Positions 2,844 through 57,168 of a DNA stretch of 64,000 nt are shown one piece after another. Both the position numbers and the translations under genes were made by a program. Numbering within the stretch: the first letter of the stretch is position 1; every line of letters begins with the position of its first letter. Below the pieces are notes generated by a model, which saw nothing but the letters and a program-made list of their open reading frames with translations, did no database searches and was not told where the DNA came from. This stretch comes from Brachyhypopomus gauderio. Its lineage: Eukaryota; Chordata; Actinopteri; Gymnotiformes; Hypopomidae. The DNA is taken from the NCBI RefSeq assembly GCF_052324685.1, contig NC_135221.1, forward strand, positions 6,215,208-6,279,207, in the 5' to 3' direction.

Positions 2844-3343
2844 NNNNNNNNNNNNNNNNNNNNNNNNNNNNNNNNNNNNNNNNNNNNNNNNNNNNNNNNN
2901 NNNNNNNNNNNNNNNNNNNNNNNNNNNNNNNNNNNNNNNNNNNNNNNNNNNNNNNNNNNNNNNNNNNNNNNNNNNNNNNNNNNNNNNNNNNNNNNNNNNN
3001 NNNNNNNNNNNNNNNNNNNNNNNNNNNNNNNNNNNNNNNNNNNNNNNNNNNNNNNNNNNNNNNNNNNNNNNNNNNNNNNNNNNNNNNNNNNNNNNNNNNN
3101 NNNNNNNNNNNNNNNNNNNNNNNNNNNNNNNNNNNNNNNNNNNNNNNNNNNNNNNNNNNNNNNNNNNNNNNNNNNNNNNNNNNNNNNNNNNNNNNNNNNN
3201 NNNNNNNNNNNNNNNNNNNNNNNNNNNNNNNNNNNNNNNNNNNNNNNNNNNNNNNNNNNNNNNNNNNNNNNNNNNNNNNNNNNNNNNNNNNNNNNNNNNN
3301 NNNNNNNNNNNNNNNNNNNNNNNNNNNNNNNNNNNNNNNNNNN
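2844..3343. other. assembly gap of exactly 500 N
   Basis: 500 consecutive N. The round number suggests a placeholder whose true length is unknown. A (GT)n begins 48 bases beyond it, consistent with assembly breaking at simple repeats. Frames that run through the gap are artefacts. Confidence 0.99.
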
Positions 3344-21850: not shown

Positions 21851-24020
21851 TTTCGAAGACACGTTTTTATTGAGGAGAGTAATGACGGGTGTTACTTCTG
21901 CACGAGGCTGACGTTAATGATATAAATGTATATGACGCTTGCATATAGATGTCGCTAACCAAAATAAAGCATCGGTTGTAATTTCACAGAATGAGTAAAA
22001 TAAAGCTGGATACCTTATCTTTCCCAACACTAATAATTGGTGTTGTATCCAGTTAGGGGTTATTTGAGGTGACAAGGAGGAAATGTTTTATACTCAAAGT
22101 CCATTTTTCAGAGTGACATCGCCTTCTATACAGTATGAAGTCATTTTGCCTGAAGCGTCGTTATTGATGTTGTTATTTACCTTGGCGGGATTAATTCCAT
22201 TAGGGCGAGAGGGTCGGATATGAGATGACGCTGTCATTTCTGTTTAGTTCATCACTGGCAGAAGACAAAGTGCACTCTGTTGCAGAGCACGCGCCAAAAC
22301 AACCTCTCCAACGTCTAATTATTGCAGATGACTTAATGGAAAACTTCAGCTTAGGTGCAAGACATTCAAACTAGGTCATCACAGTCACGCGTAACAAGGC
22401 TTGGTGTTCATCCACGCGTAATTTGAGATGCTGTGATTTAACGGAGGCCCGGTGCTTAGAAACCACACAATATGAAATAATACAATGTGTTGGCTGTTAC
22501 GCACAGCCAGCAGACACACACAATATTGCTTTCCTACCCAAATAATAAATTATTTCTTTGCACTGCTTATGTTACACAATTTATTCATAATACAAAAGTG
22601 CCACACATCCCCCAGGGCAGAAATATGGAATCGCACGTTTCAGAGAAGCCGAGGTCAGAAAATCTATTGCTGCAAGCATCCGCCCCAGAGTGTCCGACGC
22701 AGTTCGGATCGATCGACATTCTCAACTACAAAAGAAATAGATCAATGTCTAGGGGAGTCAGATTGTGCGTTTTTACCTTTTGTGGCTAATGTCATAGTGA
22801 TGGTTTCCCGTGCTTAGTTATGCTGTACGAACTTACCTCGTCAGTGTCTCAGGAGGTAAGAACACACCGAGCGTTATCAGTGATCTCACATATTGATCTC
22901 ACATACACCTCTGGTAAGGTTTGGGCTGCGTCCTATTTAGTCCTATTTGTCTATACTCCAAGGAAGGCTATGATAAAATACTACAATATCAGAATATCAA
23001 AACTGCAAAAGCTTTCACATTATGTTAAAAAGTGGCGCAAACTGATTGATAGAAACTTATTTTGTTGTGTGACTATAAGAAATAGAAGCATATAGCAAAA
23101 ATCTTAACCTCAACAATCTTAACCAGAAATCATTTCAATTTGGTATCAAATCTGTACGCAATCAGCGTATAATCGACCAAAGTGGAAAAAATAAACACTG
23201 TTCCCCGTTGCCTGGCTTATCATGAGACGTGAGTCAACTTCATCATCAGATTCCTCGGAGATGACAAAAACCTGGGCCGTGATCTCCATAAGCAGGAAAT
23301 GTACTCTCGAGGATGCCGTTTAGGTGCGTTCAATCAACCTGTGGCGCGTGTCGACTCCCCTCGTGCTATGTTGGTTAACAGACGAGCGCTCTCCATGGTG
23401 CTGAAGCTCTTCTTGTTTGTGAAATGGAGTGATAGTGATCTGGGCGGCTTGGCCATCGCAGTGTGTTCAGGTCCACGTCAGCTGAAGCATGTGGCTCACG
23501 GTCTGAACGCATTTAAGTCACTATAGTGCATACTAGTGCATAGTGCATACTCTCCTCAGATGTAACGTGCCAGGAAGTCAGTGTTTGGTGTTGAGTCATT
23601 TATATGAACTGTGTAACATATACACAGTGTGTGATGTGAGTAACTACTCAGAAACATTCAATTTGAGCCTCCAGCAGGTATAAACCAGAGAAGCATTATC
23701 AATATTTAAGGAAATCCACACATTCAGATCCCTCTATGCGGCGTTACGTTTACCTCCGTTCCTGTAACTGCAGGCTGTTTGTGTCCTGTTTCTGACCCCA
23801 GGTGCAGATGCTGGGGATCCAACAGTAGTGGTTGTTCAGGTGATAGAGAAGCTTTAATGAGATCAATCAGAGAGCAGTTTGCCTGCAGGTCTCTAGCTGC
23901 AGGTCTGGGTGATGGTGTCTGGGTTCCAGCTGACTGACAAGCTTAACTGCGTCTCGGTCTTTGCAGATTTTTCTCATCTTTTGCTAATATGACTGCATGT
24001 TTTTTTCTCTCATCATTTTC
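21851..24020. other. no gene supported
   Basis: AT-rich sequence with only short, domain-free open frames. I see no feature beyond ordinary unique-looking DNA. Confidence 0.4.
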
Positions 24021-24039
24021 TTCTGGTTCTTGCCAGAGG

Positions 24040-24720
24040 ACCTTCTGATCAGAGTTTCTCACAGATCTTCAGTGTTTCTCACAGATCTTCAATGCTTCTC
24101 ACAGATCTTCAGTGCAGTTCAAAGGCCTACGGTGGACACTGCAAAGACTGGATTCTGTGGTCAATGAGCAGTTTTAAGGTGGATTTGGAAGTAAGCTGTG
24201 GCTCATTGACCTGCTGGAAGATGCAGTTAAAACCAAGTCTTATCCTCTAACAGAAACAGTTCAAAAGTGTAATGCTATGAGTCCCAACATGAATACCAGG
24301 ACCTCAGGAAGAAAAATGGACCCACAGATTAGCCATCATATTTTATAGTGGGGTTTAGTTTTAGATTAGATTATACTAATTTTCAGAGCAAAATCAAAGT
24401 TCTGATGATATTGTGATATTGTGTCTTATTTGGGTCAATGTTAAAGATTCTCCATTTCAGTGTCTGGCAGTTTTTTTGTGAATATTGGATGTTGGTGTTG
24501 ATCAGGGAAGACTCCAAAAGACCTGTATTTTTTTAAAAGCTTAGCTCCATCTCTAATGGCTCAGAAGACCACTGTGCACTAATCGATTCTCTGTGCAAGA
24601 CCTGTGCTCTGTCTTTAACGTCTGGAGTTTGTCCAGAAGCAACCTTTACCTGTCTGCTCCACACAGACAAATGGATCTGTACATAATGAGTAGCTTTTAG
24701 CAGAGATCAATTTGGACTTT
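24040..24720 (-). pseudogene. degraded Tc1-like transposase remnant
   Basis: The minus strand between about 24290 and 24350 can be read as a decayed version of the Tc1-family stretch K-Y-G-G-G-S-V-x-x-W-G-C-F-S-S-R-G-P: a KYDG-like start, then SV, then a FFFL-like segment. The surrounding text (a 'lattice' of AAGACTGGATTCTGTGGTC, TGACCTGCTGGAAGATGCAG and TCTAATGGCTCAGAAGACC) resembles antisense Tc1 transposase coding sequence that I recognise from other fish copies. Stops and indels interrupt every frame and I could not find terminal inverted repeats, so the limits are approximate. A 23-base segment around TTTCTCACAGATCTTCA is repeated three times at 24051-24115. Confidence 0.45.
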
Positions 24721-26292
24721 CCATCATTGTCGTGGTCATATTCTTTTTAAGCACAAGAAAGGGCTGTATCCATACCTGCAGGAGACGGTCCAGAGAAAAG
24801 GCTGGTGATGCAGCACGGCACTTTGAAAGCACTTAGTCATGATTGCTTTCCAGGTCTGGGAATTAGTGCTTACCCTTAAAAGAGTGCTCAACTGGCCCAC
24901 GATCAGATTACTTTCATACGAGTGGATCTACAGTAATACTGGGTCCTTTTATGTCCTATAATCACTTTTAAAATGTCAACAGAGCATAATGATTCTTGCA
25001 TTAACTATGCATGTGTACTTCTAGATCTCGATTTTAAATATTGTATTTACAATTTTGATTGTCTTTGAATCAGAAGAACAGCAGGATCTTCTCAATCAAA
25101 TGTTTTGCTGATTTGTTTATTTTTGTATTTAATTTGTTTATTCATTTCTTTTTTTTTTTGCTGTTGCTGTTTATCATTGAAATTCTTTCAGTCTTTACAT
25201 AACAAGAATCAGTATTGACAATATGGCAGCACTTTTATAAATGCCATAAAACACCCATCAAACAACAAATTCAGGCTGAGTTACATCCACAGGGACCTCA
25301 GAATATTTTTATTGCTTAGACCAATCACCTGATCAGCCAAGGAAAAAAAAACATAATTGTTCCCACCGAAACAATTGATTTTTCCACTGTCAGCATTACT
25401 AATGGCTTTAATAGAGGTGATTATGAAGACTACACCTTCTTGTGTTTTGGCTCTTTCTTCGTCTTCTCCCACATCATTAAAGTCCTTTCAGATTTGTCAC
25501 TATATCAAACTTTCCCATCAACATTTCATTTACTTTTTATCTGTGTAATTTTTTCAAACTAATTTATTCTGTTCAGCTCGGGAGAACAAGCTTGTCCTCG
25601 TTCCACTGTGGATTCTTGGTTGTCAAATTGTTTTGAAAGAAGTCTTGAGACTTCGGCTTAAAGTAACTCTGATCCTAAATCTGCCTCCAACTCAGTGCAT
25701 GAAAATAAAGACAGTTCACGTCATTCAGTCCACGTCATTCAGTTCACATCAAGGAATGTCCTCCCATTTAAAACTGGACTGCACTGGACTGGATTTGAAC
25801 ACATATTTAGACCAAAAAAGGAGGAATTACAGGCTCAGGACCTTAAAAAGAGTTCTCCTGACACTAGCTGGCAAGCAAACCTCTGAATGTTGGCCCTAAA
25901 GTGATAAAGGTTTGATTAAATGTATCCTCTGAACCATAAATGATTTAACCTTTTTCCCCACTATTTTTCTCTCATCTTCAATACAGCCATGGGCTCTCCG
26001 TCACCTTTCAGATTGCCTAAACACTCTACATAATTTCCTGTTTTTTCTTCTCTTTCTTGAATCCTTAGCCACACACCACCCTCACACGGTGGACGTACAC
26101 CGGCCCTGTTGACTACGGCTGCTGCCTCTCTAGTGCGTGTGAAGTACGAAGGCTTTCATGTCTCCTGCCTTGGAGCAAAGAACCCAGTGTCTCCCCATGT
26201 GACCCCTTTCACTATCTCAATCTCCCCATCTCTGTCTACCACATCTCTTTCAGAAATCTCTATCCACTGGCCTGTTGGCCACTCCATAATGG

Positions 26293-26293
<1 letters not shown>
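24721..26293. other. no gene supported
   Basis: AT-rich sequence with short, unconvincing open frames. Nothing further is recognised. Confidence 0.4.

Positions 26294-26348
<55 letters not shown>
26294..26348. repeat. (GT)n microsatellite
   Basis: GT run of about 55 bases. Confidence 0.96.
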
Positions 26349-26349
<1 letters not shown>

Positions 26350-26419
26350 CTCTGCCTTCACCCTGTCTTGACCTCCAGGTTCCTCATATCCACCATAACC
26401 ACAACCGACCAATCAGGCG

Positions 26420-26790
26420 AACCACGTGCGTCGGCGTCATTACCCAATGAGCGCCAGCACCGGGGGGGAGCCAAATTACGCCGAGTCGCTGTTCAGCTGT
26501 CCTGCGCCAGTGACGCGATTATCCCGTCGGTGTCGGAGGAGCGAGCGGGATCTGAGCGCGAGGCCCCGCCGCAGGAGTGTCCGTGGCAGCTGTGTCCCGG
26601 TGCCGCAATTGAGAGCAGTTACTGAGAGGCTGTGATGGAGGGTGATCAGTCATCCGCCGTAATGAAGTGCAGTCTGGAGTGTTGCCGGCGTGATTAATGA
26701 CGGCGGAGTTTGCGGCGATAGAGTCGACACCGGCTGCCTCGTCCACCCGTAATGCCGTTCGCCCCGCAGACGTCTGAGCAAGTTTCCGTA
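26420..26790. promoter_or_regulatory. CpG-rich patch left of the transposon nest
   Basis: CpG-dense, GC-rich stretch (for example CGGTGTCGGAGGAGCGAGCG and GCGCGAGGCCCCGCCG) ending in a (CA)n that is the target of the outermost nested transposon. A CpG island is possible, but no transcript start or protein can be assigned. Confidence 0.35.
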
Positions 26791-27024
26791 AAGTTAGCGG
26801 CAGGACACACACACACACACACACACACACTAGGGCTGCACGATTAATCGTATTTTTATCGTTATCGCGATGTGAAGTTTCACGATAAACACATCGAAAG
26901 AGCCACGATAACTCCTTGAATAACAGCAAACTCAAATTGCGTTATCCTCGTCCAGCAATAGAGGGAGCTATTCGCGCTGCAGACTATGATCACGTGACGT
27001 AAGTAGGCAAGAGGCAGAGTGAGG

Positions 27025-27299
27025 CAGAGTTGCCGGGTTCGCGGTTTTCACGCCAAATTGGGCTTGTTTGAAAATCCAGCCGCGGGTAAAAATTCTGGGG
27101 CCGCGGGGTGCGGTTTTTTGGGCTACTTTTGAGTTGGGCTACTGCGGAAGTTGTTACAAGTCAACACTAAGAATCGATCGCGATATAATACTTAATTTGT
27201 CTCCAGTTCACACTCGCAACACCCCCCCCCCCCCCCCCCGCCGACAACTTACACTCGCAGATTTTGTGCGGAAAACTTTTGTAGGACCTGGCAACCCTG
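27025..27299. mobile_element. small hAT-like element M inside L1
   Basis: Left end CAGAGTTGCCGGGTTC and right end the complement of CAGGGTTGCCAGGTCC form a terminal inverted repeat with 13 of 16 matches. Flanks GAGTGAGG (27017-27024) and GAGTGGGG (27300-27307) are an eight-base target duplication with one mismatch. The 275-base element contains a C run (27223-27239) and the TATATCGCGATCGAT-type module also seen in elements L4 and Z. No coding capacity: a miniature element. Confidence 0.7.
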
Positions 27300-27469
27300 G
27301 AGTGGGGTGAACACGCTCATCAGACACGCGATTTGGTTTAAGCCTGGTTTACACTTGATGCGGCGCGAGGGTCCGGGAGGCGAAAATAACGTAATCGCGG
27401 TGGCTTCGCCCGTGTGCAATTGCCTCGCGCGCTGTCGATTCACGAGGTCGTGCACCTCTCGAATTTTGT

Positions 27470-27887
27470 AAGTTCGCGCGCGCCGCGTCTCGGCGCAATG
27501 AGAACAGTCATGTTTGCAGGGTTCATACACCTATACAAGGTGGAATTCAAGCACTTGTACGTCACTTTCAAGGTCCATTTCAATAATTCCCAGCACGTTA
27601 TTGAATTAAATATTTATACATATACTCTAAATGATTCGAAATAATTCGCTTTTTTATCACATTATTTAATGTTATTATTTATTTAAAGTTCGCGCGCGCC
27701 GCGTCTCGGCGCAATGAGAACAGTCATGTTTGCAGGGTTCATACACCTATACAAGGTGGAATTCAAGCACTTGTACGTCACTTTCAAGGTCCATTTCAAT
27801 AATTCCCAGCACGTTATTGAATTAAATATTTATACATATACTCTAAATGATTCGAAATAATTCGCTTTTTTATCACATTATTTAATG
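27470..27887. repeat. 202-base tandem duplication within L1
   Basis: Copies at 27470-27671 and 27686-27887 are separated by 14 AT-rich bases. I see no mismatch between them. Each starts AAGTTCGCGCGCGCC and ends TTATCACATTATTTAATG. A diverged third copy lies in opposite orientation at about 29379-29540 inside L5. Confidence 0.9.
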
Positions 27888-28629
27888 GATATTTATTTTC
27901 AAAACGCCCAATCTTAACGTCTTCACGTTCTCTCATGTTTCGTCCTGGAATTACAAGGGGCTCGTATTTGTTAACGTAATACAAGACAGGCCCGTAGCCA
28001 GCATTGTGATGGGGGGGATCTTTTTCCCCCAAAAGTGGACTTCATTTGGCTCTCTACTCCAATGCCCCCTAAATACGTGAGCGCACTTCAAACCTTTTAT
28101 TTACACAAATTTTATTCATTATAAGCAAGGTTGCCAACTTTTCAAAATCACTAGGACTGAGATTTGATTTGGGGGCGGGGGGGGGGGTGTATGTCAAACG
28201 TTGACCGGGGGGGAGTTATGTCTTATATGTTTCCTCTATGCTGTGCCTAAAGCGATCGATCGCCAGTGGTTGGCGCTAGAGGTCTGCACTCCCGCGGTAA
28301 TCCCGCGGGTCCCGCGGGACCCGACTGAATATCTTGCGGCGCGGGACAGAATTTAATTGTTATTGGCGGGAGCGGGAATTGAATTAGTCCAGGCGATGCG
28401 GGAGCGGGACCACATATACATGTAGAAAAATCCCGCAAATTAATAGTCTAGAAAATTATAATAATAACAACGCAATGATTTCCATGCATAAGGAACAGGA
28501 CGAAAACAACTAATCATTCGGTAAGTAAGCAATAAACTAATTCAAAATATTGGCTAAGCAACTGATCACGTGAACATGAAGTGTGCGTCATTTTGTCATT
28601 TTGATACAGAAATGGCAGAGACTGTAGAC

Positions 28630-30066
28630 CAGGGGTCGGCAACCTTTGAGACATGGAGTGCCAACTTTAACATGTCCAGTCAATAAGTGTGCCACTATGG
28701 CAGCGAGTTTAAATTGTTGACCGAGGGGGGGGGGGGTGTAAATCGACACAAAAAGTATTATATCGCGATCGATCCAAGTTTAAACTAGTGATGGGATTTT
28801 CGGCTCTATTTTGAGATGCGGCTCTAATGGCTCTTCTTACTGTGGAGAGCCGGCTCTTTTCGGCTCCCAAACGGCTCCCCATATATATTTTTTGCATTAT
28901 TAATTAATGGCTTAAACCTAATTTTATTACATTTTGTTTCATTATTGACATTGTTAAGCACTTGTGATGAGTAAAAATGCTGCATAACAATGCTTTATAA
29001 ATAAAAATTTTATTATAACCTAAAATAGAACGCAATACAGCTTGGTCAATTGCCTGCCGTTTCCACAAAAATGTGGAGACTTTTTTTTCAGTGTTTTCCC
29101 ACCACATTATTAACTAAAATCTGCGTGTGATTGGTCAGATGTGTGGAGCACACGCTTGACATGCGGGCAGTGGAGACATTCTTTGCAGTGTTGTCCGAAA
29201 CGATATGTGGTAGTATAAAGAAACACCCCTCAAAAACAGGGGAAGGAACATTTACCTGACGAAAATTAATGTTGCATTGTGTTCCAGGTTAGAAAAGTGC
29301 TAAAGTAGGCTAAAGTAGGCTACTTGAAAATGTAACTGTATTTTGTTTCACAACAAATAGATGTCTGACTGAATCGATGTGATAAAAAAGCGAATTATTT
29401 CGAATAATTTCGAGTATATGTATAAATATTTAAGTTTAAGGTGCTGGGAAATATTGAAAATTGACGTACAAGTGCTTAAATTCCACCTTGTAAAGGTGTA
29501 TGAAGCCGGCATACACGACTTTGTTCATTGCGCTGAAGAGGTGCACGACCTCGCTTCGCACGGGGGTCCTCGCGCAGGGGCGGAGCCACCGCGATTGCGC
29601 AGGTCCCTCGCGCAGGTCGCGACGCGCCAAGTATGCTCTACCACTGGCAGAAACAGAGCAATACGCGCAAGGAGAGGGAGAGACAGCGAGGCACCGAAGG
29701 ACAAATAAAATCGATGTTGGAAAAAAACTGTGGCACTTGCAGAGCACAAGCGCAATACTGAACGAAAAAGCGGCTCCCAAATAGGATCCTAAAACGGCTC
29801 CCATTGTGGAGCCGGTTCCAATCGTTCACTTTAAAGAGCCGGATCGTTCGCGAACGACACATCACTAGTTTAAACGCCTCCGCCGTTCGCGCGAGGTGTG
29901 CGTGCGGAGTCGCGCGCTACGGTCACTCGCGAAAGTATAATCCATTAATATAATAATTTATATTAAAATATATATTTTTGCTGATGCTGGTCCAGCGTGT
30001 CGTGTGCCAGTGACTATGCCTCGGTGTGCCAATGGTGGCACGCGTGCCGTAGGTTGCCGACCCCTG
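28630..30066. mobile_element. hAT element L4 with CAGGGGTCGGCAACCT termini
   Basis: A perfect 16-base inverted repeat CAGGGGTCGGCAACCT and a perfect eight-base target duplication CTGTAGAC (28622-28629 and 30067-30074). Termini of this type belong to the Charlie/Tip100-like hAT groups. With L5 removed it is about 350 bases: a G run (28722-28736) followed by TATTATATCGCGATCGAT on the left, and CCGCCGTTCGCGCGAGG on the right. No transposase. Confidence 0.88.
28786..29867. mobile_element. hAT element L5, innermost of the nest
   Basis: Starts TAGTGATGGGA and ends in the complement of TAGTGATGTGTCG; the perfect part of the inverted repeat is eight bases. The eight-base target duplication is GTTTAAAC (28778-28785 and 29868-29875), itself palindromic. 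Subterminal regions carry several CGGCTC/GAGCCG motifs (CGGCTCTATTTTG, GAGCCGGCTC, CGGCTCCC) at both ends, as hAT transposase binding sites often do. The middle (about 29172-29690) is homologous in opposite orientation to the body of L1. No intact transposase. Confidence 0.82.
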
Positions 30067-31410
30067 CTGTAGACGGTCAACCAGTTTCAGCTGTGGAAAA
30101 TTCTATTAAAACAGGCGAATACACCACAATTAAGCCAACTACAGGAAAGTCTGATGTATGGAAGTCATATTCCATTGTAATTAATGGAGATGGAAATCGG
30201 CTTGTTGTGATACATGTCAGAAAGTGTTGGTGTACGTCATCAGAAATGGGACAGCGCGATCCATCGCTATATTGCTGTTTTAATAAATACATAAGAAAAT
30301 TTCAAGTACTAAATCTAATTAATTCAATTCATATTAGGATTGCGGGCGGGGGCGACAGAAATGTGTATGTGGTGGGCGGGTGCGGGATTAAAACAAGCGA
30401 TTTTTTGGCCGGTGCGGGCGGGAGCGGGATTAAAACGAGCAGGTGCGGGCGGGAGCGGGATTAAAACAAGCGATTTTTTGGCGGGAGCGGGTCTAAAACA
30501 AGCGGGAGCGGGATTAAAAAAGCAGTCCCGCGCAGACCTCTAGTTGGCGCCAGAGCGAACTAGTAACTCTTGGAATCATAGATGTAGATCGGAGATAAAT
30601 AAACTAGATTTTTTTTTCAGCATGAGAAATCGGATGTATGTTGGGTGAGCGTGTGAAAACGGTCAAATGCGTGTGTCTCACGCTCATTGCGTGAGAGTTG
30701 GCAACACTGTTATAAGTTTGTTGTGAGTCTGCTGTTGCTGTCCTTATTTGTTCGTCTGTATATTCACCGGAGATTAACAATTCATTCATTGAATAGCCTA
30801 CCTATCTTGAGGGGCATGTGTGTACGGAGGGAGGGTGCGGGGGCGGGGGGGGGGGGATCGAACGAACCCTTCGATCCCCCCTGGCTACGGGCCTGCAAGA
30901 GAATTGTTCAGTCAGACAGATATTTGTTGTGAAACGAAGTAGTTACAATTTCAAGCTTTTTAAAATACTTTAGCCTAAATTCCAGCACTTTTCAAACCTG
31001 AAACACAAAGCAACATTAAAATTGGTCAGGTAAAAGTTCATTCCCCTGTATTTGAGGGGTGTTTTTTTTATACTACTAGGCCTACATATCGTTTCGGACA
31101 ACACTGCAAAGAATGTGACACGGCAAGATTAAACGCTTCCGCCGTTCGCGGAGGTTAACGAGGTGTGCGGAGTCGCTCACTCGTGAAAGTATAAACCTAG
31201 ATTGAATCTATTGTTGAATAAACCTGCAAAATATTTGGAATTATTCTGGATTCATTACACAGTAAAAAACAAAACAAATTAACGTGCTGCTGTTCAGAGA
31301 GACACTACATTTCTGTATTTTAATCTTAATTTATCGTGGTTCACATCGATATCGGGATATCCAACAATGTTATCGCACGTCGCAATTCTAGTCCATATCG
31401 TGCACCCCTA

Positions 31411-33052
31411 ACACACACACACACAGGGCAAAGCTGGGCAAACTGGGGAATGTCCATTATGCTCTGGTGATGTCATCTCACAGTATTACGGTGTTCCCTC
31501 AAACACATTTCTTGTTTCCATCATGTCTAGTTAAGAGCACATGGCACTTCCTCCAGGCATTAGCTGTGCACAATACACAGTGTTTCTGAACAGGAACCTG
31601 TTCACATATAAATGCATATACACATACATATAAACTCATTTAGAGTTATTTATGCAATCACCTTAAATGTGTTACAGGCCTTTTCTGGACAGATTGAATG
31701 CAGAAAATAAAGTGATGTTCCTAAACAGAGATGTCAGTGGTTATTCATGAAAGTTCATATACATGAAGCGAATTTTGTTTTCTCAGGTGAACATTAATTG
31801 AAAATACATCATATATAACGTGTCTTTTCCTTCCAGCAATTTTTTGACAGACCACTCAGAACCAGTAAAATGCATTGAGACATATTAAAGTCATTCTAAA
31901 CTCTCCTCTGTCCCAGAGCTGACACATCCGTTAGAATACTAGTGCGGTGGCAATGCTGCCTTCCAGGAAATGTTTTATAGTTTGCAGTTGTGATATTCTG
32001 AATGACCTGTAGATGTTGATAACACTCTCAGCAACTTTGCTTTAACACTGACAAAATGAGCTCGGAGTTTCGCAGCAATCTCCTCCTGACGGCCGCGTTT
32101 AGGCCAAGCGCCTTTCCCTCCAGTCTGCGCATCTTCCAACTCTCATTTCACACACCTGCTGCAGCGAAGGGGCTTCAGGACGGAGCGCTTCATGCACCAG
32201 GTGTGCCAGACTGCAGTCGAGTGACCACAGACCAACCCCCACTTCAGCACATTTGCAAGTCAAAATGTGTCCACAGTGGAATGCAGTGAAACACCCTTCA
32301 GGGCTCAGAGGCTGCTCTCCGGAAGTCTTGTTTCTTTTTTTCAGGGAAGCTTGTTGCTGCTTTCAAATCCAAACCTTCTGCGTAATATCATTTGAGGCGA
32401 CACACTGATACAATGTGTTTTAATCACCGTATTATGGTTTTTGCTACTGCCTAGAATAAGATGGGTTAATATGAAAGAGCCAGACAAGAGAGCTGAGGTT
32501 TTAGGACACAGCTGCTACGAATGCAACGCTGTGCATACCTGCTCTGTTCCAGATGACCTCTGCTCCTCTCACCCAGGCCAGATCACGATGAAACCCTGGA
32601 ACACAGGCGGGTGAAACCCCCACTGCAGGGACGGCTCCACCGTGCCACACAATACCACACAATAGGAGACAGGCATGAAAAGCAAAGCAAGCAAGCTGCC
32701 AGATTGGGCCAGGACCACTGGAATGAAGCCAAGCAGCACTAATGAGAGGATTATCCAGGTAAATGAAGCAATGGGCTGTTTATTTATGGGGTTTAGACAA
32801 AGAGAGTAATCACAGGGCTGTCTTCATAAGGTCCCGCTCTAAATCATCCACACTAAAGGAAATTGCAGAGAAACGCCAAAGTCATAAAGGCTAAACTGAA
32901 GGAATATGTTTCATTTAACCTCTGACAGTGGCTAAATGAGCTGAGGGAACAGCGCCCCCTTGAGCCAGGGCCTGATACTCCTACTGCGATGCCTCTCACA
33001 ACCTGAGCACACAGACAATATCAGCTGCTGCTGGTTTTCTGCCTTCGCTTCA
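31411..33052. other. no gene supported
   Basis: AT-rich sequence. A frame at 32056-32289 has no recognisable domain or homologue that I know. Nothing else is visible. Confidence 0.4.
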
Positions 33053-33715
33053 AAAGCAGACTGTGCTTCTGTAGACAAGCACCTGTGTTAACTCATTAAA
33101 AGTAGACTGTGATTCTATAGACAAGACTGTGCTTCTATAGACCAGCACCTGTGTTAATTCATTAAACACAGACTGTGCTTCTGTAGACAAGCACCTGTGT
33201 TAACTCATTAAAAGCAGACTGTGTTTCTATAGACAAGACTGTGCTTCTATAGACCAGCACCTGTGTTAATTCATTAAACACAGACTGTGCTTCTGTAGAC
33301 AAGCACCTGTGTTAACTCATTAAAAGCAGACTGTGTTTCTATAGACAAGACTGTGCTTCTATAGACCAGCACCTGTGTTAATTCATTAAACACAGACTGT
33401 GCTTCTGTAGACAAGCACCTGTGTTAACTCATTAAAAGCAGACTGTGTTTCTATAGACAAGACTGTGCTTCTATAGACCAGCACCTGTGTTAATTCATTA
33501 AACACAGACTGTGCTTCTGTAGACAAGCACCTGTGTAATTCATTAAAAGCAGACGTTGCTTCTATAGACAAGACTGTGCTTCTATAGACCAGTACCTGTG
33601 TTAACTAAAAAAAAACAGCCTATGCTTCTATAGACAGACAACTGTGTTAACTCATTAAAAGCAGTCTGTGCTTCTATTGACAAGCACCTGTGTTAACTCA
33701 TTAAAAGCGGCATTA
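33053..33715. repeat. 112-bp satellite-like array, about six copies
   Basis: CTGTGCTTCTGTAGACAAGC recurs at 33061, 33173, 33285 and so on, a period of 112 bases. Each unit contains two related sub-units, GACTGTGCTTCTATAGACCAG and GCACCTGTGTTAA(C/T)TCATTAAA. Central copies are nearly identical; edge copies have decayed. Confidence 0.93.
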
Positions 33716-34202
33716 AAGAGTCACCTGGCCAAAAGCAAAACAGACTTTTCTTTCATCTCTTGTCTCTTTTCTTTTCCAGTCTTGAGCAACCATGGTTGCC
33801 CCTCATTGATAGCCTAGTGCTTCCCTATCGCTTTTTGCCCCCTCTCTGATTTTTGCTGCATGTCATTTAATAGAATACAGCAACCCAGCAGTAGCGGAGG
33901 TCCTTGGAGACCATCCAATGCTCTGAGTTAGCAGAGGTTCCACTGCAGAACACTCCATTTACACGCCACTTACTTCGAAGCATTCGCTGTAGATGTTCCA
34001 ACAACAGAACGCACCCACAGGTGTAACCTGTAATGTGAATGATGAATATACATTTCTGACAATCACCTAACCAAATCCTCCACTTCGCTGCTGAGAAGCA
34101 AGCAAGGCATATGCCTTTAAGAGACTTACAGAGACTAACAAAGCATTTCAGATATGGGCCAGATAAAAGAGCATTAAGAGGCCGTGCCTACAGCAGTCTT
34201 CT

Positions 34203-34448
34203 AGAACTACGACATATGTATACATGATGACATACGTATACATGATGACATACATATACATGACAACATACATATACATAATAACATATACATGACCACA
34301 TACATGATGACATACGTATACATGATGACATACATGACGTCATAAGTATACATGATAACATATACATGACGACATACGTATACATGATGGCATACATATA
34401 CGATAACAAATACATGATGACATACGTATACATGATGACAGACATATA
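34203..34448. repeat. ACATGATGACATACGTAT minisatellite
   Basis: Imperfect units of about 17-18 bases, TACATGATGACATACGTA with CATATA variants, repeated roughly 14 times. Confidence 0.92.
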
Positions 34449-37193
<2,745 letters not shown>

Positions 37194-37985
37194 CTATTTG
37201 TTACTCGCTTCTCCGGGGAATATGTCTTCATACGCGGGCGGCAACTCGTTTGGAAGTGGGTAAGAGAAAGGGTAAGAGTGGTTCAATTCTGGATCGCTTG
37301 GCGAGTAGCCCGGTAGTTCGATGGACGGGTGGCCGCAACATTGCACTTCCACGCCGGCCTCGTCAAACACGTGAAATACCCCCAGGTTAATATAAGACAC
37401 CGGTTGGAATTCCGCCACCGCAAAGTCCCGTTCCTCGTTGAGAATGATCGCCCCCGCGCTCCGCCTCTGCGTGCGCCTTCTTCTATAAAACTGCGCGGTT
37501 TGGTACCTCTTAATGATCACCAGGTTCATCAACCCTATGAGACATTCCAAAGTGTTAAGAATGGTAGATATGACCAGACCTCTCTGATAATCCTTCAGCT
37601 GATCGCATACGGGATTTAGATCCACAGAGTCCAAGCAATAGTGCGAATATTTCCGCTCCACCAGCGACACGGTGTCGCCATCCACCACGGCCCCCGAGAA
37701 CGCCGTGAGAATTCCCAGAAGGAACACCAAGACTCCAAAGAGAAAGAAATTCCGACAGCCCGGTTTCCCTTTGCAACACACGAGCGCCATCCCCAACAAC
37801 ACCTGCCCGAGTCCGACAAGTATTCCCGAGTAAAAAGCCCCGGCCGAGGTCCCGAGGTGGAAATGTACTTTCACTTGGGATCCCAGAGAGATGCATTTGA
37901 ATCCAACGACAACTGTGCTTATGGCACAGACAAAAAGCAGACTGCTGGAGACGATGGCACACAGTCCTTGCCCACTCAACTTCAT
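37194..37985 (-). CDS. tmem271: transmembrane protein 271-like, four-pass membrane protein
   Basis: An intact uninterrupted 263-residue frame, read as a single-exon gene. Four hydrophobic segments at about residues 8-28, 48-71, 79-101 and 136-158 give a tetraspan topology with short N- and long C-terminal cytoplasmic tails. Between segments 3 and 4 is GDTVSLVERKYSHYC, which I recall as the signature of TMEM271 and its TMEM255 relatives, with further Cys at 127. The tail has a basic cluster RRRRTQRR (168-175), SYINLGVFH (197-205) and a PPAY motif (249-252), a potential ligand for WW domains of Nedd4-type ubiquitin ligases. The start at 37985 places the first membrane segment just inside the protein as in family members. 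The molecular function of the family is not established; the family name is from memory of sequence, and a TMEM255-like paralogue is the alternative. Confidence 0.75.
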   Translation of the reverse strand: MKLSGQGLCAIVSSSLLFVCAISTVVVGFKCISLGSQVKVHFHLGTSAGAFYSGILVGLGQVLLGMALVCCKGKPGCRNFFLFGVLVFLLGILTAFSGAVVDGDTVSLVERKYSHYCLDSVDLNPVCDQLKDYQRGLVISTILNTLECLIGLMNLVIIKRYQTAQFYRRRRTQRRSAGAIILNEERDFAVAEFQPVSYINLGVFHVFDEAGVEVQCCGHPSIELPGYSPSDPELNHSYPFSYPLPNELPPAYEDIFPGEASNK

Positions 37986-38024
37986 TATATTCCTCCTCTA
38001 CCACTCCCGGTCTCTCTCCCTCCT

Positions 38025-38450
38025 TCATCCTCCTTTGTCCTCCTCGTCAGCTCTTCTCGAAGCGCTGTCAGACTGTGACATGACTTGCCGGTGATTACTG
38101 TTCAAATCGAGGACCTCCGGAGCTGCGCACTGTGCGCCCCTTTCGCGCCGCTTCAGAAATGGATTAATTATTGATAGGCAGGGCGCGCTCCTTCTGTGGT
38201 ACCAGCCCCCTAAAGCCAGTTTAAAGGTAGTGATTACCTTCATGACCCTCTCCCGCCACCCACTCCCCTACGCGATAAAGCGCGTCTCCGAGCCGTGCTT
38301 CGATCGCCGATGGGGAAGCGATTCCCTCCCGCTCTTTCTGCGCTCGCACGGCGTGCACCCCGCTGATGCGCGGCACCGACGCGCCACCGCGAGCGCACAT
38401 CACGGTGCGCTTTGCTTCTTGGGTTTGAAGTTGGCCATTTGGCTGGAAAC
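38025..38450 (-). promoter_or_regulatory. CpG-rich upstream region of tmem271
   Basis: Immediately upstream of the tmem271 start on its strand. CpG is frequent (TTTCGCGCCGCTTC, CACCGACGCGCCACCGCGAG), in contrast to the AT-rich flanks. This composition and position fit a CpG-island promoter and 5' untranslated region. No TATA box was identified. Antisense open frames here are by-products of GC content. Confidence 0.55.
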
Positions 38451-48397: not shown

Positions 48398-49902
48398 GAG
48401 AGGGAGCCACTAAGAGTTCTGAGTCTTCTTTCCAGCATTTAAGAAGTATTCATTGTTTCTGATCAATCATTCAACAGTATTTTCCCAGGTTAACATTTGA
48501 GTCTCTCCAGCAAACCACTGGCCTCTCGGTTCACTTTGATCAAAATGGAAATGTGTCTCATCAAGGTTTTCATAGGGATTGTCGAATTGTAAAATGTGTA
48601 ATAGTGCAATGAAATATGTACGGCAGTGAGCAAATCAAAGGGAAATAAAATACGCCATTAAATTTTAAATGCAAATCCAAGACAACCCAATCAAAAAGAA
48701 GGTTCCTTTTTCACGAAGGCTGGCAGCAGTAAGACTCGGCTACACAGTGTGGCTCTAATTCTATTGATCCACGCTCCTTGACTAAATCTAATCTCTTCTA
48801 CTGTAAAATTCACTCGTGTGGTTGTCTCCACCACTAACACTAATGTCACTCCTGTATTCATGTCCATGAAATGATCTGATCCCACTGGTAAAGGTAACAA
48901 ATTAAATGTACTGTTTTCCTTTCATATCTAGCTTACGGGGGATCTAGCTTTCTGTCATTTCTACACATGATTAAACAAAGCATCTTAAATTCTCCACGTA
49001 TCCTTTGTGACCGCATCTGTAATTCAGCAAAGCAGTATGATTCTAAAGTAGTGAATCCCTTCCTCTTCTTAGTCCATTATTTTTAATAGTGGGAGACAGG
49101 TACTCATACAGTAGACCAGTGTTTCTCAACCTTTTTTCAGTTGTGGCACCCTTTATATGCATGCAAAATTTTAAGGCACCCCAGTTTACAATGCGTTAAA
49201 AACACAGGCTTTGGGGGGTGGGGGGGTGGAGACGTAAGTTTTTGACGGGGGGGGGGACGTAAAATGGACACAAATTAAGTTTTATATCGCAATCTATTGA
49301 TCGCGGGTGGTTGGCGCCAAAGCGAACTAGTAACTCATTGAATCATAGATATGGATCAGATAAATAAACAAGATTTTTTTTTGGATGTGAGATATCGGAA
49401 GTGTGCCGTGAGAGCGTGTGAAAACGGTCAAATGCGTGTGTCTCATGCTCAATGCGTGAGCGTTGGAAACCCTGAAAACATACTCTCTGCAACCATCTCC
49501 CGGCCAACATAACACAAAAGTGATTATTAAGACAGAGAGCAGATAAATGTGACTTACAGTCAGTGGGAAACCTGCGTAATCACGTGCTGACCTTGGTCAT
49601 ATGCAGGTCATATGCACGCTTTGAGCGTGAGACTCACGCATATTTAGCGATTTCACACGCTCTCACGCCACACATGGAATTTCTCACGCTTGAATATTAT
49701 TATTATTTTATTTTTTAAATAATCTAATCTAATAAATAATCAATTAATTAAATAATTTTAAATAATCTAATCTAATGCGGTGTGTGCGCCGCACACCGCA
49801 GCATATTCAGCCAATCCATCGGTTGTATATTATAACAGGTTGAACCAATCAGAATATAGATCGCGCTGTTTCTTGGTAGACTTTAGCCAGCCTGCTCCCC
49901 AA

Positions 49903-55558: not shown

Positions 55559-57168
55559 GGACTGTCTCAGAAAATTAGAATATTGTGATAAAGTGCTTTA
55601 TTTTCCGTAATGCAATTAAAAAAAAAATGAAATGTCATACATTGTGGATACATTACAAATCAACTGAAATATTGCAAGCCTTTAATTGTTTTAATATAGC
55701 CGATTATGGCATACAGCTTAAGAAAACTCAAATCCTATCTCAAAATATTAGAATATTTCCTCAGACCAAGTAAAAAAATAAAAAATATAACAGCAAAACA
55801 AAATCAAACATTTGAAAATGTCCATTAATGCACTCAGTACTTAGTTGGGAATCCTTTTGCACAGATTACTGCATCAATGCGGCGTGGCATGGAGGCAATC
55901 AGCCTGTGGCATTGCTGAGGTGTTATGGATGACCAGGATGCTTCAATAGCGGCCTTTAGCTCATTTGCATTATTGGGTCTGGTGTCTTTCATCTTCTTCT
56001 TCACAATACCCCACAAATTCTCTATGGGGTTCAGGTCAGGGGAATTGGCAGGCCAATCAAGAACAGCAATGCCATGGTCAGTACACCAGTTACTGGTGGT
56101 TTTGGCACTGTGGGCAGGTGCCAGATCATGCTGGAAAATGAAAGCATCATCTCCATAGAGCTTTTCAGCAGATAGAAGCATGTAGTGCTCTAAAATCTCT
56201 TGGTACACAACTGCATTTACTCTGGACTTGATAAAACACAGTGGACCAACACCAGCAGCTGACATGGCTCCCCAAACCATCGCTGACTGTGGGAACTTCA
56301 CACTGGATTTCAAGCAACTTGGATTTTGCTCCTCTCCAGCCTTTCTCCAGACTCTGGCGCCTTGACTACCAAATGACATACAAAACTTGCTTTCGTCTGA
56401 AAAGAGGACTTTGGACCACTCTGCAACTGTCCAGTGCTTCTTTTCCATAGCCCAAGTCAGACGCTTCTTCCGTTGTCTTGAGTTCAGAAGTGGCTTGACC
56501 ATGGGAATACGGCTATTGTAGCCCATTTCCCGGACACGTCTGTGAACAGTGGCTTTTGATACCTGGACTCCAGCTTCAGTCCACTGTCTTTGAAGCTCCC
56601 CCAAATTCTGGAAGCGGCTCTTCTTCACAATGTTGTTAAGGCTGCGGTCATCCCTCTTGGTTGTGCAGCGTTTCCTGCCACATTTCCCCCTTCCAACAGA
56701 CTTTTTGTGAATGTGCTTTGAAACTGCACTCTGTGAACAGCCTGCTCTTTGAGAAATTTCTTTTTGTTTCTTACCCTCCTGATGGAGGGTGTCAATGATG
56801 GTCCTCTGGACAGCAGTCAGATCAGAAGTCTTCCCCATACTTGAGATTTAGTTTACTGAACCAAGCTGAGTGTTTTTCAAGGCTCAGGAAACACTTGCAG
56901 GTGTTTCGAGTTAATTAGACGATTCAAGTGATTAGTTGAATAGCCTACTAGGATACTTTGTCAAGATATTCTAATATTTTGAGATAGGATTTTTGATTTG
57001 TTTTCTTAAGCTGTACGCCATAATCAGCTATATTAAAACAATTAAAGGCTTGCAATATTTCAGTTGATTTGTAATGTATCCACAATGTATGACATTTCAT
57101 TTTTTTTTATTGCATTACGGAAAATAAAGCACTTTATCACAATATTCTAATTTTCTGAGACAGTCCTG
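55557..57168 (-). mobile_element. full-length Tc1/mariner transposon
   Basis: Terminal inverted repeats of about 200 bases (55557-55756 and 56966-57168) begin CAGGACTGTCTCAGAAAATT and differ at only a few positions and small indels. The element is 1612 bases. On the right it is followed by TA, the expected target duplication; on the left the bases are CA, inside a CA microsatellite, so one duplication has changed. With an intact transposase and paired ends it looks recently active. Confidence 0.95.
55834..56838 (-). CDS. Tc1-like transposase, intact, DD34E
   Basis: A 334-residue uninterrupted frame, close to the usual 335-345 residues for Tc1 transposases. The N-terminus (about 1-45, with KEISQRAGCSQSAVSKHI) is the first helix-turn-helix that binds the inverted repeats. 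GRGKCGRKR at 50-58 is a GRPR-like basic hook. A second helix-turn-helix includes VSKATVHRRVREMGY (93-107). The catalytic triad is Asp148 (FSDESKF), Asp238 (FQHDLAPAH) and Glu273 (NPIENLWG), with 34 residues between the last two as expected for DD34E. The enzyme performs cut-and-paste transposition into TA sites. No stop or frameshift is present. The start is the MGKTSDLT methionine typical of this group. Confidence 0.96.
   Translation of the reverse strand: MGKTSDLTAVQRTIIDTLHQEGKKQKEISQRAGCSQSAVSKHIHKKSVGRGKCGRKRCTTKRDDRSLNNIVKKSRFQNLGELQRQWTEAGVQVSKATVHRRVREMGYNSRIPMVKPLLNSRQRKKRLTWAMEKKHWTVAEWSKVLFSDESKFCMSFGSQGARVWRKAGEEQNPSCLKSSVKFPQSAMVWGAMSAAGVGPLCFIKSRVNAVVYQEILEHYMLLSAEKLYGDDAFIFQHDLAPAHSAKTTSNWCTDHGIAVLDWPANSPDLNPIENLWGIVKKKMKDTRPNNANELKAAIEASWSSITPQQCHRLIASMPRRIDAVICAKGFPTKY

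Follow-up and report, generated by a model that had tools for sequence, protein, structure and literature searches.

How do six transposons come to lie one inside another at a single locus, and does the order of their nesting reveal the order of their arrival? The locus that raises this question is found in a stretch of 64,000 nucleotides from Brachyhypopomus gauderio (assembly GCF_052324685.1, contig NC_135221.1, positions 6,215,208 to 6,279,207), which we refer to as the window and number from its first letter. A first-pass annotation had described six hAT-like shells nested in one another and a separate seventh element within the outermost shell, and our analysis confirmed the coordinates and the facing inverted ends of all of them (7/7). 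The nest of six is real and unusually deep, and it is a known kind of structure: Nested miniature inverted-repeat transposable elements (MITEs) have already been described. We consider it highly probable that six non-autonomous, MITE-like transposons of the hAT type became nested by successive cut-and-paste insertion. The seven elements, none of which is assigned a strand, are the following:

26831..31410: shell 1, hAT-like and putatively non-autonomous; ends TAGGGCTGCACGAT / TAGGGGTGCACGAT; host site an (AC)n microsatellite; net length 1,666 bp (shells 2-6 taken out, separate element kept).
27025..27299: separate hAT-like element within shell 1; ends CAGAGTTGCCGGGT / CAGGGTTGCCAGGT; flanks GAGTGAGG / GAGTGGGG, agreeing at 7/8 positions.
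27987..30895: shell 2; perfect 15-bp ends CAGGCCCGTAGCCAG; 5-bp duplication CAAGA; net 318 bp.
28126..30709: shell 3; ends CAAGGTTGCCAACT / CAGTGTTGCCAACT; 7-bp duplication TTATAAG; net 310 bp.
28277..30542: shell 4; ends TAGAGGTCTGC; 8-bp duplication GTTGGCGC; net 821 bp.
28630..30066: shell 5; perfect 16-bp ends CAGGGGTCGGCAACCT; 8-bp duplication CTGTAGAC; net 347 bp.
28786..29867: shell 6, the innermost; ends TAGTGATG, exact over 8 bases; palindromic 8-bp duplication GTTTAAAC; 1,082 bp.

The nested arrangement is documented by the ends of the elements and by the direct repeats that flank them. Besides the perfect ends of shells 2 and 5, the two ends are identical for the first 11 bases in shell 4 and for the first 8 in shell 6, and a comparison over 14 bases leaves one mismatch in shell 1 and two each in shell 3 and the separate element. 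Exact flanking repeats accompany five of the six shells (5, 7, 8, 8 and 8 bp for shells 2-6), and each of these repeats is the one that had been proposed in the first-pass annotation, which named no flanking repeat for the separate element. The duplication of shell 6 is its own reverse complement, and that of shell 3 would extend to the 8-bp TTATAAGT if one base had been lost on the left side. The joint probability that the flanks match by chance is about 1e-25, calculated from base composition with the ends taken as given and uncorrected for the choice of ends by the reader. A blind scan of the window for inverted ends combined with an exact repeat of 5-8 bp (score at least 38; 20 block shuffles as control) gave 10 matches in the real sequence and none in any of the shuffles (0/20). 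Three of these matches are shells 2, 4, and 5, a Tc1-like element accounts for two more, and the other five are pairs of internal inverted repeats; shells 1, 3, and 6 were missed at these settings. A scan with a stricter requirement for the target-site duplication (TSD) returned shells 4 and 5 only, along with one match each in 2/12 shuffles.

Further evidence for insertion comes from a relative of shell 3 elsewhere in the window:

49210..49474, plus strand: relative of shell 3, partial and external to the nest, without a recognisable left end; a single, unbroken GTTGGCGC.

Once shell 4 and one copy of GTTGGCGC are removed from shell 3, its net bases 130-310 align to 49296-49474 at 84.5% identity, and the junction is unbroken. 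Judged by this alignment, the stretch is an empty site for shell 4 within the window. Close to it, at 49615-49690, lies a second, inverted partial relative of the right part of shell 3 (79%). For shells 3, 5, and 6, no solid empty site was found in the window; the right part of shell 1 was considered as one for shell 6 and rejected, its left support extending only about 3 bases past the duplication.

These observations also bear on whether the nest is an artefact, that is, a misassembly or a set of chance inverted repeats taken for elements. Assembly is difficult at homopolymer runs (27222-27239, 28177-28187, 28725-28736, and 30845-30856) and in the flanking microsatellite. However, each of shells 2-6 has a duplication of its own, with the joint chance given above, the broad scan found nothing in shuffled sequence (the stricter one a single match in each of two shuffles), and shell 4 has its empty site in the window. 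Moreover, the nest contains no N: The only N run of the window spans 2844-3343, so that there is no scaffold gap inside the nest. We therefore regard an artefact as very improbable and return to nested insertion.

To which transposons do the shells belong? A six-frame Pfam reading of the nest (X at stops) contained no transposase domain, as expected for non-autonomous elements; the two matches with E of at most 1, DUF1106 and DUF6863, each fall below the cut-off and neither is a transposase. Rfam yielded no match in the window at the gathering score. Together with net lengths of 310-1,666 bp, the lack of a transposase domain makes the elements look non-autonomous. With respect to MITE traits, they are short, non-coding, and bounded by inverted ends, and a second copy is seen for shell 3 alone, as the partial relative described above. 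The assignment to hAT is made provisionally, entirely from end sequences and duplication length. hAT ends follow the pattern Y-A-R-N-G, which fits 12/14 ends: all 12 of shells 1, 3-6, and the separate element, and neither of the two ends of shell 2. The 8-bp duplications put forward in the first-pass annotation as typical of hAT elements are exact for shells 4, 5, and 6 (3/3) and nearly so (7/8) for the separate element; shell 3 shows 7 bp, or 8 if one base was lost, and shell 2 departs from the typical length with 5 bp (CAAGA) on each side. The hAT assignment is less than firm for shells 1-3. In the hAT5 lineage, which is described from some invertebrates and fish, duplications measure 5 bp (PMC9004415). 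Because its duplication is 5 bp instead of 8, shell 2 is filed as hAT5-like at most, a placement that the duplication length would fit. Patterns derived from the ends of shells 5, 2, and 1 matched no stretch among the IMG/VR viral contigs (0 for 3/3 patterns), a search that may omit records of the window's own genome. When the six end sequences were searched as literature text, 'tagaggtctgc' alone was matched, in five papers with no link to transposons in title or abstract start.

Several points weigh against the reading of the nest as six successively inserted hAT-type elements. Firstly, shell 1 has no readable duplication: (AC)n lies on either side of it (26805-26830 and 31411-31425), which makes the repeat ACACACAC uninformative, so that the flanking repeats claimed earlier are upheld for shells 2-6, and the one of shell 1 is unreadable. 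Secondly, the ends of shell 6 are the weakest of the nest, agreement being limited to the first 8 bases. Thirdly, the target sites do not help to place the elements. Ac-group elements have the target pattern nTnnnnAn. For the Buster group, the duplication pattern is given as nnnTAnnn (PMC3517528). Shells 5 and 6 fit both patterns alike, neither pattern fits shell 4 or the separate element, and the patterns are thus non-discriminating here. Fourthly, full copies of the shells were not found elsewhere in the window: Searches of the window with 14-base end queries (n=12, at most 2 mismatches) returned the nest's own ends and four two-mismatch matches. The latter look like chance, given about 0.4 expected per query and no duplicated partner end in 3/4 tested. 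Finally, the observation that supports an insertion of shell 2 is weaker than that for shell 4: Shell 6 carries at 29176-29599 an inverted relative of the shell 1 interior that lacks shell 2 (29176-29373 versus 31116-30907, 82.5%; 29377-29536 versus 27878-27706, 82.7%). The two shell-1-like parts lie 3 bases apart, at a position where shell 1 holds about 114 bases besides shell 2. As these bases are absent, the match across shell 2 represents continuity and not an exact empty site.

Internal sequence is also shared between other elements. The segment 27173-27258 recurs in inverted form at 28703-28773, its subsegment 27172-27211 again at 49298-49259, and 31126-31197 is repeated at 29867-29943. 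Shells 1, 3, 5, and 6 and the separate element thus have internal stretches in common, which points to related sequences and partly chimeric families; chimerism is common among non-autonomous elements. The six families named in the first-pass annotation are borne out by six different ends, and not by the interiors. Within shell 1, one further feature can be dated relative to this shared material:

27470..27901, plus strand: 216-bp tandem duplication; units 98% identical.

This duplication probably arose after the module of shell 1 had separated from that of shell 6, since both units are equally distant (82.7%) from shell 6. The related copies differ by 10 transitions and 26 transversions (28126-30709 with 49150-49500) and by 15 and 31 (27300-31410 with 28786-29867), respectively; this excess of transversions is odd for neutral vertebrate decay and may be an effect of alignment. 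A further enclosing element in shell 1, suggested by two weak ends that face each other (GGTTTACACTT at 27346, GGTTTATACTT with its last base at 31197), was rejected: The flanks, CCT and TAG, show no duplication.

How, then, was the nest assembled? In each case a hAT transposase, which we infer to have acted in trans, would have excised the element from another location and inserted it into a copy of its present encloser, thereby duplicating 8 bp of the target (5 bp in the case of the hAT5-like shell 2). The seventh, small element would have entered shell 1 independently. Ordinary repeated transposition is the likeliest explanation and enough to build the nest. The first-pass annotation had read the nesting as insertion in order from outside to inside, which is correct insofar as an inner element entered an already existing copy of its host element. 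It does not extend to the order of arrival at the site: Every shell keeps both ends, so that a filled shell could move as a unit, and the arrival order at this locus is not given by the nesting. For mobile elements of the cut-and-paste type, the order in which they are nested should therefore not be taken directly for a chronology of the locus. Some or all of shells 2-6 may even have become nested elsewhere and entered the present host as one cargo-laden element, as cut-and-paste transposition permits and as the retained ends of every shell would allow, a filled shell of 1.4-2.9 kb being mobilisable in trans. However, no filled shell was seen a second time in the window, and successive single insertions require nothing further to be assumed; we judge such a composite arrival to be unlikely and retain stepwise insertion.

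Is the depth of the nest itself surprising? In a uniform Monte Carlo simulation of the window (9, 15, 25, and 40 insertions, 4,000 runs each), depth 6 was reached in 0/16,000 runs, and no run went beyond 5. Extended to a whole genome, the uniform model predicts 20-102 depth-6 nests of any kind per gigabase (Gb) at 40-50% transposon content, 2.6 at 30%, and 0.2 at 20%. For zebrafish, 56.5% interspersed repeats, 41.1% DNA transposons, and 11.7% hAT elements are reported (PMC4746887). Zebrafish proportions lead the model to 265 depth-6 nests per Gb of any kind and 0.02 per Gb that are all-hAT, medaka proportions to 5.9 and about 1e-5, respectively. If hAT elements made up 25-50% of the bases in transposable elements (TEs) at 40-50% TE content, 0.005-1.6 all-hAT nests per Gb would be expected. 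In terms of the model, a deep stack as such would need no special cause in a transposon-rich genome, and an all-hAT stack would exceed the uniform prediction unless hATs dominate the genome or were active in successive bursts. As the locus was chosen for its depth, these numbers provide a scale and not a test.

Base composition offers a second view of the same question. The observed/expected ratio (o/e) of CpG is 1.18 in the nest, compared to a median of 0.49 and a maximum of 0.90 among 462 overlapping segments of equal length from the rest of the 64 kb, which suggests youth or a lack of methylation. From shell 1 to shell 6 the ratios are 1.52, 0.61, 0.97, 1.28, 1.30, and 1.09; an age gradient by CpG loss was discarded, since o/e has no trend along nest depth. 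Shell 3 and its outside relative have each lost 2 CpG sites, with 8 kept and 5 other changes, and the relative has an o/e of 1.30. Equal losses and the high ratio of the relative imply that CpG richness follows the families, and they give no sign of a protected site. The window overall shows CpG loss with an excess of TpG/CpA and many dinucleotide repeats, traits that, along with the Tc1-type transposase described below, point to a vertebrate and probably to a teleost. Immediately to the left of the nest-bearing microsatellite, 26350-26804 is CpG-island-like (GC content 0.61, o/e 1.05), with no gene identified; the right flank of the nest has an o/e of 0.44.

Both lines of evidence can be set against the idea of a preferred target, according to which hATs, or a CpG-rich stretch next to a CpG-island-like flank, attract or tolerate hAT insertion and form a hot spot. 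This idea concerns why the nest is so deep and is compatible with nested insertion. In its favour are the absence of depth 6 from the simulated runs, the low number of all-hAT nests expected, and the CpG content of the nest and its left flank. In addition, vector integrations in zebrafish are reported to favour CpG islands (PMC4825651), and for the clustered, nested MITEs of the carrot DcSto family a 'safe haven' is discussed (PMC3695323). Conversely, the window simulation is post hoc for a locus picked for its depth, nests of six from any superfamily are expected at the rates given above, and hAT membership of shells 1-3 is uncertain. CpG loss is the same inside and outside the nest, its richness goes with the families, and the right flank lacks it. 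The earlier suggestion that the site tolerates or attracts insertion thus keeps the support of an all-hAT depth above the uniform prediction and loses that of reduced CpG decay; we regard a preferred target as possible, and hold it tentatively. The narrower proposal that hATs of the host genome preferentially insert into other hATs, as a self-limiting target bias, appears quite unlikely. If it were true, a targeting rule would have produced the stack, and the number of deep all-hAT nests across the genome would lie far above the uniform expectation. No function is evident for the nest as a whole.

The surroundings of the nest provide no host gene: The flanks 22001-26802 and 31420-36221 have no Pfam match above the cut-off and one below it (DUF3969). 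On the minus strand, an open frame of 263 amino acids (37194-37985) lies in the CpG-rich stretch 37201-38400; its Pfam matches are weak and below the cut-off, and PDB and NCBIfam gave neither a match nor a clear family. The Tc1/mariner-like element mentioned above occupies about 55585-57140 (outer limits approximate) and has long inverted ends, a CpG o/e of 0.31, and an uninterrupted transposase frame of 334 amino acids (55834-56838, minus strand) with the Pfam domains HTH_Tnp_Tc3_2 and DDE_3.

Taken on its own, the locus is a clear and unusually deep example of a known process; nested MITE clusters were reportedly described by Jiang and Wessler in 2001. We met no six-deep hAT nest in the titles and abstract starts of the literature on nested elements and hATs, which does not imply its absence from print. 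If the locus is typical, deep nests would show in condensed form which families of non-autonomous hATs were active on top of which, and they could serve to examine whether elements of the cut-and-paste type prefer each other as targets. Alu retroposons do not move out again once inserted. They are the example used for TinT (PMC3014933), which, like REANNOTATE (PMC2672092), treats nesting as relative age, as did the earlier reading of this nest; cut-and-paste hosts, in contrast, can carry passengers along. With the hAT5 lineage (PMC9004415), shell 2 has the 5-bp duplication in common, by which it is placed, while its end fails Y-A-R-N-G. The Mar MITE of the Buster family, as described (PMC3517528), resembles the nest in having ends that start with CAG/TAG, 8-bp duplications (here in shells 4-6), and no coding capacity; the present shells differ in that no transposase is available to place them and in that the duplications of shells 2 and 3 have other lengths. 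The closest parallel in architecture is provided by the nested clusters of carrot DcSto, in which short non-autonomous DNA transposons likewise lie in one another with their own target duplications (PMC3695323). The nesting described there is single-level and involves plant Stowaway and Tourist elements with TA and TTA duplications, whereas the nest analysed here comprises six levels of the hAT type.

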